Position numbers and translations under genes: made by a program. Positions 26,260 to 49,132 of a DNA stretch of 64,000 bases are shown one piece after another. Numbering within the stretch: position 1 is the first letter of the stretch; each line of letters begins with the position of its first letter. The notes beneath the pieces are model-generated. The model did no database searches, was not told where the DNA came from, and worked only from the letters and a program-made list of their open reading frames with translations. The stretch covers positions 1-64,000 of the forward strand of contig NZ_CAJHAR010000014.1 of NCBI RefSeq assembly GCF_904846415.1. The letters run 5' to 3'. The DNA is from Psychrobacter piscatorii (lineage in GTDB: Bacteria > Pseudomonadota > Gammaproteobacteria > Pseudomonadales > Moraxellaceae).

Positions 26260-27462
26260 CTACATAACGCCCATGTTAAATAGCCATAATGCCAAGCCAA
26301 TAATCAAAATGGCAGCAAATACCCATATAAACCAACCACCGCTAGATTTTTTCTCTACTTGTCCTGTATGAGCTGGATTACTGATTTCTTGATCCTTGGC
26401 ATTATTACCTTCAGTGCCAAGATCATGAGCCTGCCCTAAGTTGGCCGTACCCGAAAATTGCGCGGTCGCTGCTTGCTTGGCTTTTAAAACCTCAGGATCG
26501 GCTTCTTCTTGTAATTCAGTCTTTGTCGTTTTATCGTGCTCTTCACTTACTACTGGCTCTTCACTTACTACTGGTTCTTCACTTACTGTTGGCTGCGATA
26601 CTGATGGTTCATCATCAGTAGATACTGTTGGGGTCAACGGCTCTGTAGTCGTCACAGCTTCTGACTCCATTGCTGTTGACTCAGTCGCTGCTGATACAGG
26701 CGTTTCAGATACAGACGTCTCAGATACTATCTCTGACTCTTCTGGTGCTGTTTCAATCGATGCAGGCGTAGCACTTTCTGCGGCCGACAAGACATCGTCG
26801 ATACCTGTCTCTTTGACTACTGGCTCTTGAGACTCTTGAGGCGCTGGTTCAGTTACTTCCGCTCTGTCAACTACAGGCGCACTTGCTGAATCTACTACGG
26901 TGTCTGAAGTAGTATCGACAGATGGATTCTCTGCATCCTCTGCAGCGGGTAAAATCTCTTCAATATTCGTTTGCTTTACGATTGGCTCGCTGGCGATATG
27001 TTCTTCGATGATATATTCGTCGTGCAAATTCTCAGTGGCTTCTGCTGGGGCAGTCTCATCACTGACATTACTTACTGCAGCTTCTGTTGTGACTGGCTCT
27101 AGTGTCTCATCTGCTTTAGCAGCGACAGGCGCTTGTACCTGAAAGCTAAAGCTTGCAAATCCAAGCGTATCCTCAGCCTGTAGAAGGTTTGATTCGTTGC
27201 CCGCGATACGTTGATCATTGATAAAGGTACCGTTAGAAGAGTCCAAGTCTTTTACGTATAACTGACCATCAAGTATGCTTAGAATGGCATGATTGCGAGA
27301 TACTTGCTTGCTGCCTAGTACCACGTCATTATCACTGCCACGACCAATAGACAAGCTGTCATTGACTGTCAGCGTCAGATCACCCAGCGCCTCTGTTAAC
27401 GCATTTAGTTGCCAAGTATTCATCTCTGCTGTCGTGCTCACGCTATCTGTATTGTTCGTCAT
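26260..27462 (-). CDS. FHA-domain protein with acidic linker and C-terminal membrane anchor
   Basis: A forkhead-associated domain (about 27-105) keeps the phosphothreonine-binding residues: GR at 40-41, SRNH at 55-58 and NG at 77-78. About 265 residues of Glu/Val/Ser/Thr-rich low-complexity sequence follow, and one hydrophobic segment (about 376-397) ends the protein. This is the plan of a tail-anchored protein with the FHA domain in the cytoplasm, probably recruiting Ser/Thr-phosphorylated partners to the membrane. No kinase or phosphatase gene is nearby. It lies upstream of trpE on the same strand but with a terminator between. Confidence 0.85.
   Translation of the reverse strand: MTNNTDSVSTTAEMNTWQLNALTEALGDLTLTVNDSLSIGRGSDNDVVLGSKQVSRNHAILSILDGQLYVKDLDSSNGTFINDQRIAGNESNLLQAEDTLGFASFSFQVQAPVAAKADETLEPVTTEAAVSNVSDETAPAEATENLHDEYIIEEHIASEPIVKQTNIEEILPAAEDAENPSVDTTSDTVVDSASAPVVDRAEVTEPAPQESQEPVVKETGIDDVLSAAESATPASIETAPEESEIVSETSVSETPVSAATESTAMESEAVTTTEPLTPTVSTDDEPSVSQPTVSEEPVVSEEPVVSEEHDKTTKTELQEEADPEVLKAKQAATAQFSGTANLGQAHDLGTEGNNAKDQEISNPAHTGQVEKKSSGGWFIWVFAAILIIGLALWLFNMGVM
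26541..26594 (-). repeat. Three tandem 18-base units in the FHA gene linker
   Basis: Units at 26541-26558, 26559-26576 and 26577-26594 differ at a few bases and encode EPVVSE-type hexapeptides. Two are nearly identical, so copy number may vary between strains. Confidence 0.85.
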
Positions 27463-31331: not shown

Positions 31332-31589
31332 CGAACAATGTCCTTATGATTTAGATTTTTTATCACCCAATTTGATGATATTAGTATGACCAACCACATG
31401 GCTGGCTTCGGTCATTCTGTTTATGAGTACCAGCATCTACTGTTATTGTAGATGGCTCTGAAAGTCATATTTACAAACTTGTCGTAAATATTTACTACCG
31501 ACTTACTGAGCTGGGCTGATGATTTGTTATCCTAAGCTGCATATTTAGATTCACTATTCAAACCCAAAAACCACAACAAAGGATGTGTT

Positions 31590-32003
31590 ATGAAAACTTT
31601 ATATTCTACTAAATCTACTGTTACTGGCGGTCGTATGGGTACGGCAACCTTGAGCGATAGCGACCTTGAGATCAACATGACACCACCAGGTGGCAATCAA
31701 AAAGGCAATAATCCTGAGCAATTGCTAGCTATGGGCTACGGTGCTTGCTTTGATGGCGCGCTTGGCGTGGTCAAAAAGATGGAAAACGCACGCTTTGGTT
31801 CCACAACTGAAACGTCTGTTGATTTGTTACAAGGTGACAACCACGAGTACAAACTCTCAGTAAAGATCCATGTAATCGCCGACAACACTGATCTGTCAGC
31901 TGATGAGATCCAAAAACTGGTTGAAAAGGCGCATGACGTCTGCCCATATTCTAAAGCCACACGCGGTAATATCGATGTTGAAGTCTCTTCAGAAGTAAAA
32001 TAA
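31590..32003 (+). CDS. ohr: Organic hydroperoxide resistance protein (Ohr/OsmC family)
   Basis: Ohr is a thiol peroxidase that reduces organic hydroperoxides. The two reactive Cys are in GACFDGAL and DVCPYSKATRGN, and LYSTKSTVTGGRMG is the typical N-terminus. The 137-residue length is normal. AAAGGA precedes the ATG. The regulator ohrR is not adjacent. An ATTTAC/GTAAAT inverted repeat at 31469-31489 lies in the upstream gap and could be an operator, but this is weak. Confidence 0.93.
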   Translation: MKTLYSTKSTVTGGRMGTATLSDSDLEINMTPPGGNQKGNNPEQLLAMGYGACFDGALGVVKKMENARFGSTTETSVDLLQGDNHEYKLSVKIHVIADNTDLSADEIQKLVEKAHDVCPYSKATRGNIDVEVSSEVK

Positions 32004-47844: not shown

Positions 47845-47871
47845 TTGGTAGGCTAACGATTTATCTCAAAA

Positions 47872-47906
47872 AAAAGACGCTAAACCTAAAGGCTAGCGTC
47901 TTTTTT
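47872..47906. terminator. Bidirectional terminator between flavoprotein and BLUF genes
   Basis: AAAAAGACGCTA pairs with TAGCGTCTTTTT around an 11-base loop between two convergent genes. Confidence 0.9.
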
Positions 47907-47960: not shown

Positions 47961-48590
47961 TTATAGATATAACAGTACCAGCGCCACAACTAGCAAGACA
48001 CTCAAAAACCCTTGAATAATCAAAAATGCTTGATGCGGTGCCGCTATATGGCGGAACATATTGCCTAGCGCATTGTAAGTAATGCCCGCTGCTTTGATAT
48101 GTGGCGGGGTGTCGAAATTTTTGATAATTTGCAAAAACTGCTCAGTACGATCAGGTGACCAGCCGTGCGGTGCAAATGGTAAAAATGGTGAAAGCTGCGC
48201 CGCTTGCTCTTTGGTTGCAGGTGACCATAGCCAGCGCTCCAAAAACAGCAGACGCATACGCCAGTCTGAGAAGCTGCGATGATCAATCTCTTGCAATAAT
48301 AATACTTCAACGTTTTTGTGACGATTATCAGCAAAAATGCGTTTTTGTAGCGCAAATACATGTTTCTGTTCGCCTTCGATGCACTGCAAAAACTGACCAT
48401 TGCCATAACATAATGTACCGGTAATGCCGTGCTGCTCATTATAATCGCGAGCATGGGCCTCTACATCCTCAAATATAGAGGTGTTTAGACGTGACGCAAT
48501 GGTCAACGTACTGACATAGACCAGCTGAACCAATGATGACTCTTCTATTTCATCCCATTGCTTGATTCTATTGCTACGAGTTAAGGGCAT
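47961..48590 (-). CDS. BLUF blue-light photoreceptor with C-terminal membrane anchor
   Basis: BLUF domains bind FAD and respond to blue light by a hydrogen-bond switch. The domain is at about 20-115 and all key residues are in place: Tyr25 (LVYVS), Asn51 (YNEQHGITG), Gln69 (FLQCIEGE) and Trp110 (FSDWRM). The Asn-Gln (18) and Gln-Trp (41) spacings equal those of AppA and PixD. About 70 residues of tail follow, then one hydrophobic segment (about 188-209) that ends the protein, so it is probably tail-anchored. No output domain such as EAL is fused. Well-known short BLUF proteins of Moraxellaceae (BlsA) have, as far as I know, no such anchor. Confidence 0.92.
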   Translation of the reverse strand: MPLTRSNRIKQWDEIEESSLVQLVYVSTLTIASRLNTSIFEDVEAHARDYNEQHGITGTLCYGNGQFLQCIEGEQKHVFALQKRIFADNRHKNVEVLLLQEIDHRSFSDWRMRLLFLERWLWSPATKEQAAQLSPFLPFAPHGWSPDRTEQFLQIIKNFDTPPHIKAAGITYNALGNMFRHIAAPHQAFLIIQGFLSVLLVVALVLLYL

Positions 48591-49132
48591 AATAAAATAA
48601 TCCTACGGCCGAACACATACGGCTAAATATGACAAGCAAAACGATACTATGCCTGAAGTAAATGAAGATATTGACTCACAAAAACGTAGCAAATATTTAC
48701 TACCTGAGACTATTATTACTCATACAGCTTGCTATGATAATAAACAAACTAAAGGGCGCTGACAGTATATAAGGTCGATACAAGAAAATATAAGGTTAAT
48801 CTAACTTAATATATGAGGAACCGCTTATTCAGCTCTTCCAAGTAACTCAATAAGTGTTAGCATTATATCGATCACGATGACGGTTTTTAATACATTAACT
48901 TTTCATCAATTGAGAACTGCTTCAACCGTGATAAACATCAAAACTCGTATTCGAAATGAGATAGAATCTCATCGTAACCTATTGTAAACACGACAATAAT
49001 TATTGTAACGGCAATATTCTTCTATTGGAATGTTTTTATTGCTTTTTTATGCAAAAACTTGCGTCACTCGCCCCTTTAATACTGTCATATCAAATATCAT
49101 CACATTTAGTAGAGATTTAACACAGGAATATT
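48591..49132. other. Intergenic region between the BLUF gene and the GNAT-nitrilase gene
   Basis: About 540 AT-rich bases separate two divergent genes. I see no gene, hairpin or repeat of note. CAGGAATATT precedes the rightward ATG. Confidence 0.55.

Follow-up and report, generated by a model that had tools for sequence, protein, structure and literature searches.

Domain organization of the BLUF protein

The window (the whole 64-kb stretch of DNA analysed here) carries, at positions 47961–48590 of the minus strand, the gene of a short BLUF photoreceptor with a predicted tail anchor. The product is 209 residues long and starts at an ATG codon, a gene model also supported by orthologs; the initial annotation of this segment gave no strand. 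The protein consists of a BLUF domain (residues 20–112, positions 48255–48533), a PixD-like helical cap (residues 113–159, 48114–48254), a juxtamembrane segment (residues 160–184, 48039–48113) and a C-terminal helix predicted to be a transmembrane anchor (residues 189–209, 47964–48026), all encoded on the minus strand. Rfam finds four tRNAs and nothing else in the 64 kb.

The BLUF domain is the sole Pfam domain of the protein (PF04940, model positions 1–91 of 92, E 5.4e-26) and scores 91 bits against a cut-off of 25. The residues that we take to form the flavin site of BLUF proteins (Tyr, Asn and Gln) and to mark their last strand (Trp and Met) are all there as Y25, N51, Q69, W110 and M112, in agreement with the initial annotation. 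Alignments of 17 and of 47 relatives show no change at Y25, N51, Q69 or W110, and M112 varies among relatives. By analogy with the BLUF family, the protein is very probably photoactive. None of the anchored proteins of this genome, which number three (this protein and two paralogs described below), is assigned to a BLUF-protein family by NCBIfam.

The cap is defined by its similarity to PixD. A profile built from 17 relatives matches TePixD (PDB id: 1x0p) over residues 20–159 of the query (E 6.2e-30) and SyPixD (PDB id: 2hfn) over residues 19–159, and with a 47-sequence profile the alignments to PixD proteins end at query residues 158–160. The AlphaFold2 model computed from 47 sequences has a mean pLDDT of 75.7 and places the cap helices at residues 124–132 and 146–156. 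In the Foldseek search TePixD comes first (E 1.9e-11), followed by BlrB, SyPixD and BlsA, with TM-scores by target of 0.81–0.86 for the chains of 1x0p and 8i98 at the top. Like the window protein, the PixD proteins Tll0078 (TePixD) and Slr1694 (SyPixD) are made up of a BLUF domain and C-terminal cap helices, but their chains stop after the cap (143–163 residues), whereas the window protein continues for about 50 residues that hold the predicted anchor. The stretch from the BLUF domain to the helix, a 70-residue tail in the initial annotation, comes to about 76 residues, and about half of that tail (residues 113–159) is the known PixD cap. Since the cap aligns with PixD, the real addition to a PixD-type protein is about 50 residues (160–209). 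The protein is a variant of the PixD type, not a plain PixD, with a hydrophobic helix at its end.

The C-terminal helix

The C-terminal 21-mer FLIIQGFLSVLLVVALVLLYL reaches a Kyte–Doolittle hydropathy of 2.90 (19-residue window), compared with a maximum of 0.97 for residues 1–180. When the whole protein is shuffled, 8 of 20000 sequences reach this value, and 12 of 20000 do so when residues 113–209 are shuffled. Residues 190–209 include no charged residue, and the Hessa hydrophobicity scale sums to −2.75. The tail is the single hydrophobic window of the protein and extends to the last residue, just as the single terminal hydrophobic segment had been described at the outset. AlphaFold2 predicts a helix at residues 185–208, with a mean pLDDT of 88–92 from residue 191 and lower values before it. 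Basic residues precede the helix and none follow it, which would fit an N-in topology.

The hydrophobic character of the tail is retained among orthologs. Tail hydropathy is at least 2.14 in 69 of 70 distinct sequences (orthologs and tandem copies; exact duplicates were left out, and six clade B sequences with a TTG start, L167–L172, lie outside the set). D, E, K and R are absent from columns 190–209 in 67 of the 70, the other three (L160, L161 and L166) having one basic residue each. The first of two tandem copies at one locus (L152) has a stop codon inside the helix, and its second copy is intact. On the strength of these predictions the protein is, with high probability, anchored in the membrane.

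A different reading of the same helix is that it is not inserted but packs within a soluble oligomer or a partner complex. PixD proteins form large oligomers, and PixD makes a decamer with its PixE-type partner; the PDB entries for Tll0078 and Slr1694 contain 6–20 chains, and the invariant Gln in the helix and the His-Gln at its start (see below) could make protein contacts. Such packing is nevertheless very improbable, given about 20 uncharged and strongly hydrophobic residues at the extreme C-terminus, with basic residues only before the helix, and given that paralogs and proteins of other genera change the tail sequence yet stay hydrophobic. A membrane anchor is the better description: the conserved hydrophobic tail, the constraint on the juxtamembrane segment and the recurrence of this architecture in paralogs and in other genera lend the tail-anchored BLUF protein of the initial annotation good support in silico.

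Hydrophobicity confined to the tail is found in two of the 50 non-overlapping ORFs of at least 100 residues in the window, the BLUF gene and a 400-residue ORF at 26260–27462 on the minus strand, which is another candidate tail-anchored protein.

Conservation of the juxtamembrane segment

The segment between the cap and the anchor (residues 160–184, containing GITYNALGNMFRHIAA) is the most conserved part of the protein. Among 825 ortholog pairs, limited to 78–93% identity and with synonymous sites near saturation, pN is 0.230 for residues 1–19, 0.103 for the BLUF domain, 0.067 for the cap, 0.051 for residues 160–184 and 0.081 for residues 185–209. Mean pairwise identity over the 70 sequences follows a similar course, with 0.40 for residues 1–19, 0.70 for 20–112, 0.76 for 113–163, 0.83 for 164–189 and 0.63 for 190–209, so that by this measure the helix itself is more variable than the BLUF domain (0.63 versus 0.70). 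Residues 163–183 have pLDDT values below 50 in the AlphaFold2 model. As judged from these comparisons, the segment leading into the membrane is under a constraint at least equal to that on the photosensor. According to the available text of PMC6695109, the C-termini of bacterial BLUF photoreceptors are highly divergent; in the Psychrobacter orthologs, in contrast, conservation is highest in the juxtamembrane part.

The motif HQAFxxxQxxL (residues 186–196, positions 48003–48035, minus strand) stands where the anchor helix begins. Its positions H186, Q187, F189, Q193 and L196 are invariant in all 70 distinct orthologs and are the same across the two clades, A and B, in which the motif is found in this genome.

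The main rival to a signalling role of this region is that the helix is a passive tether, which would keep an ordinary short BLUF protein near the membrane; the target of that protein would be soluble or peripheral, like those of PixD, PapB and BlsA, and the tail would carry no signal. PapB of Rhodopseudomonas palustris is a single-domain BLUF protein too, and its C-terminal helices signal to a protein partner, the EAL protein PapA; an anchor is not mentioned for PapB in the part of PMC8846402 that was available. Against a passive tether stand the juxtamembrane segment of Psychrobacter, where conservation exceeds that of the photosensor domain, and the five positions within residues 186–196, including the Gln inside the helix, that are invariant in 70 of 70 sequences; a passive anchor should vary more. 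We regard a mere tether as rather unlikely, even with the evidence from other genera that speaks for it (see below).

The locus in Psychrobacter

The gene belongs to a conserved locus of the genus. A match of some kind is present in all of the 100 Psychrobacter genomes, and in 91 of them the best match has an E-value of at most 1e-60 and runs to residue 207–209, tail included. The best named relative is Psychrobacter sp. Ps6 (97% identity). From 159 relatives in the genome collection the best 80 loci were kept, and 74 of these (L093–L166) were checked for neighbours. The BLUF gene is flanked by a convergent gene for an FAD-linked oxidase and a divergent CN-hydrolase/acetyltransferase gene. Both the oxidase and the CN-hydrolase gene are found in 66 of the 74 loci, and the remaining eight have one flank only, the contig ending at or near the BLUF gene. 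Farther out lie a thioredoxin-like gene and, as identified by eye, an isoleucyl-tRNA synthetase gene. No operon including the BLUF gene is seen at the ortholog locus. The protein represents an architecture variant of the short BLUF proteins that is real and conserved.

In some Psychrobacter species anchored BLUF genes occur as tandem copies at this same locus (L042, L048, L049, L152 and L158). One further copy of the locus, with the Psychrobacter BLUF gene and gene order, lies on a 7.8-kb contig labelled as a Planctomycetia metagenome-assembled genome (L150); this contig has probably been misbinned and belongs to Psychrobacter.

The FAD oxidase and BLUF genes converge, and in the space between them a perfect 13-bp inverted repeat with A/T-run flanks was found by eye at 47870–47906. 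It is probably the shared terminator of the two genes; a terminator scan with a loop limit of 8 did not return it.

On the other side of the gene, about 100 bp upstream of the start codon, lies a conserved imperfect dyad, GTAGCAAATATTTACTAC, at 48686–48703. It is present within three mismatches in 51 of 76 upstream regions and is contained in a conserved block seen in a footprint of 45 loci. The dyad is possibly an operator or promoter element.

A copy with one mismatch occurs at 31481–31498, 109 bp upstream of an Ohr-family peroxiredoxin gene (organic hydroperoxide resistance, 31590–32003; TIGR03561, E 7.6e-43). One could accordingly imagine that the anchored BLUF protein serves in the response to photo-oxidative stress, under joint regulation with Ohr, encoded 17 kb away, and that it takes light as a warning of lipid peroxidation to come in the membrane. 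In the 3.5-Mb genome these two sites are the only ones within two mismatches, the reversed-pattern control giving none, and 0.09 sites would be expected in the window at up to three mismatches. Across the genus, however, the dyad is found within two mismatches in just 5 of 29 ohr upstream regions (one sequence, L365, being left out because it has no start), and the ohr element drifts to a consensus of its own. Moreover, the pattern is present in 48 of 60 genomes of the genus and the reversed-pattern control in 33 of 60, so the dyad is not specific at two mismatches. Co-regulation of the two genes is improbable, and a shared control of BLUF and ohr is to be taken as a lead from sequence comparison, not as a finding.

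Anchored BLUF proteins in this genome and in other genera

The genome has nine BLUF hits, of which three carry a C-terminal anchor: the window gene (clade A) and the paralogs L004 (clade B) and L006 (clade C). L004 is 39% identical to the window gene and keeps the HQAFxxxQ motif, which is absent from L006. The three form one clade (SH-aLRT 94). Another locus of this genome (L008, contig C32) contains two tandem divergent BLUF genes with Pfam scores of 47 and 31 bits, which are possibly degenerating.

The initial annotation had pointed to the Moraxellaceae as the family in which to look for further BLUF proteins with C-terminal transmembrane segments, and this was the right place. BLUF genes are found in 181 of 249 genomes and in 11 of the 16 genera sampled in the family, and eight of these 11 have anchored BLUF proteins (g1, which is Psychrobacter, and g5, g7, g9, g10, g11, g12 and g14). 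No anchored BLUF protein was found in g8 (one representative) or g13 (three representatives). As far as the accessible text of a 2013 study (PMC3554667) goes, the named Moraxellaceae genera beside Acinetobacter, with the exception of Psychrobacter, have no BLUF genes; the 11 BLUF-bearing genera found here stand against this. In the portions of PMC3554667 and PMC6695109 that were available, the BLUF proteins of Acinetobacter, BlsA among them, are small and have no recognised output domain. They come from the same family as the window protein, but unlike it they lack the anchor: no C-terminal anchor was found in 21 BLUF ORFs of g15 (presumed Acinetobacter), in agreement with PMC3554667.

Anchored proteins are especially numerous in g9. 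One genome of this genus (G139) has 12 hits that correspond to 11 BLUF proteins, ten of them anchored. The g9 loci L207, L209 and L214–L227 come from genomes in which 6 to 12 BLUF hits are found. Most of the hits examined are anchored, several have His in place of the photoactive Gln, and two of the proteins (L207 and L209) combine two BLUF domains with an anchor.

Anchors also occur in two other families of the order. The tail counts for family, order and phylum cover the BLUF hits that were fetched, a part of all hits, without ORFs lacking a closed end and, for the family, without exact duplicates, and they are not unbiased rates, some regions having been picked for long reading frames: elsewhere in the order an anchor is present in 5 of 51 examined BLUF ORFs, four of them in g35 and one in another family, and in the phylum sample 6 of 49 exceed the hydropathy threshold. 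Five of these six belong to family f78 and have multi-helix C-termini, and in another phylum-sample protein (L387) the hydrophobic window falls within the BLUF domain itself; a single-helix tail was not seen in any of the 49.

Outside Psychrobacter, HQAFxxxQ-like tails are clear only in L088–L090 (g7, where the BLUF gene of L090 is in a broken frame) and in L175 (g10), and the other anchored tails differ, which makes a single common partner for all anchored BLUF proteins unlikely. A tail-profile detector applied to 76 genomes added three true genomes, all of g7 and one of them that of L090; its false positives were a transporter-like ORF (L091) and a match outside any BLUF gene (L092). The wider spread of anchors is visible only through the hydropathy of each BLUF ORF. 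In one g10 locus (L301) the anchored BLUF gene adjoins, as judged by eye, a serA-like gene, and in the window one gene lies between the two, an arrangement consistent with descent from a common locus.

The 132 BLUF representatives, from which sequences more than 70% identical or with a short BLUF match were left out, divide into 51 with an anchor and 81 without. The two labels are intermixed on a tree of poor resolution, which requires no fewer than 11 changes between them. From this number of changes, anchors may be gained and lost easily. The mixture of anchored and soluble forms, together with the unrelated tails on similar BLUF domains in other genera, is what a passive tether would lead one to expect. 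The Y-N-Q triad is kept in 43 of the 51 anchored representatives, and in the other eight (seven from g9 and one from g7) the Gln is replaced by His; these eight may be blind.

A probable membrane-tethered photoreceptor and its possible partner

The usual view of short BLUF proteins is that of switches free in the cytosol, with variable C-termini and soluble partners. The conserved set of anchored BLUF proteins in Psychrobacter and several related genera suggests that in these bacteria light is read at the cell membrane. The best explanation of the data, and one that we consider probable, is a membrane-tethered PixD-like switch that would signal to a membrane partner through its juxtamembrane segment, in preference to a helix that serves as a tether and nothing more. 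A single C-terminal helix would tether a short PixD-type BLUF protein to the inner membrane on its cytoplasmic side. Going by what is known of the family, blue light would switch the hydrogen-bond network of the flavin around Y25, N51 and Q69. The change at the flavin site would then pass through the PixD-like cap (residues 113–159) to the juxtamembrane segment and the HQAFxxxQ helix start, which would alter contacts with a membrane protein or between copies of the receptor in the membrane. Signalling through the tail to a membrane partner, at which the initial annotation had hinted, is something that we infer solely from the conservation of the tail and hold to be somewhat favoured.

The gene neighbourhoods do not name this partner. 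No recurrent neighbour gene that would do so was found in the 74 ortholog loci or in 15 neighbourhoods from other genera. The latter have few genes in common: three g35 loci are syntenic, a sugar-kinase-like gene is shared by L294 and L305, one pair of loci (L300 and L304) has a gene in common, and dehydrogenase-family matches recur in L296–L298, L302 and L303. A PixE-like partner was sought through DUF4388, which we take to be a domain of the PixD partner PixE, and was rejected, there being no match in this genome.

Broader still is the view that anchored BLUF proteins form a class of their own in the Moraxellaceae and some of their neighbours (about ten per genome in one genus, some without the photoactive Gln), that together they read light at the inner membrane and, at the same time, that the HQAFxxxQ motif of Psychrobacter provides direct coupling between the photosensor and a transmembrane partner. 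This combination is tentative and would more readily be doubted than accepted; if true, coupling of this kind would be a route not found described for BLUF proteins in the part of the literature that was searched. The architecture itself is apparently undescribed so far, no BLUF protein with a C-terminal anchor having been found in that literature, which extended little into subscription papers.

With its most conserved region directly before the predicted anchor and its gene at one locus across Psychrobacter, the protein makes light sensing at the membrane directly testable in non-phototrophs. With a single gene, a single anchor and a single motif, it is also a receptor of simple genetics in which to look for a membrane partner. 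Optogenetics could draw on proteins of this kind as naturally occurring blue-light switches tethered to the membrane.

Other BLUF arrangements

A BLUF domain is tied to the membrane in another way in family f78, elsewhere in the phylum, where L367 and L368 are fusions of BLUF with PsiE (PF06146, E 7.6e-26 and 4.7e-26) and L369, L371 and L373 are similar. Here too the BLUF domain (PF04940) is bound to the membrane within one polypeptide, as shown by PF06146 in the two proteins scanned, but through a multi-helix PsiE domain in place of the single anchor of the window protein, and there is no sign of a common origin. The fusions are an independent case of a membrane-bound BLUF protein.

The idea, taken from these fusions, that PsiE might be a general membrane partner was rejected, as the occurrence of PsiE does not follow that of the anchor. 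PsiE is present in 7 of 7 g1 genomes, in none of 14 genomes from the family's other genera that have anchored BLUF proteins and in 7 of 8 g15 genomes; in g35 it is above the cut-off in three of four genomes, and it is not found in G349.

Two further BLUF proteins of this genome, each of about 250 residues, are encoded between a roadblock/LC7-like protein and a Ras-like GTPase (L005, 957–3177, and L007, 628–2357; contigs C1 and C42). In L005 the GTPase matches PF00071 (E 6.4e-5), and the roadblock/LC7-like protein was recognised by eye, with a weak LAMTOR5 match (E 0.0065) below the cut-off. For the combination of BLUF, roadblock and GTPase, the literature searched yielded nothing beyond an optogenetics review. 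The arrangement raises the possibility that the two BLUF proteins place a bacterial Ras-like GTPase under the control of light.
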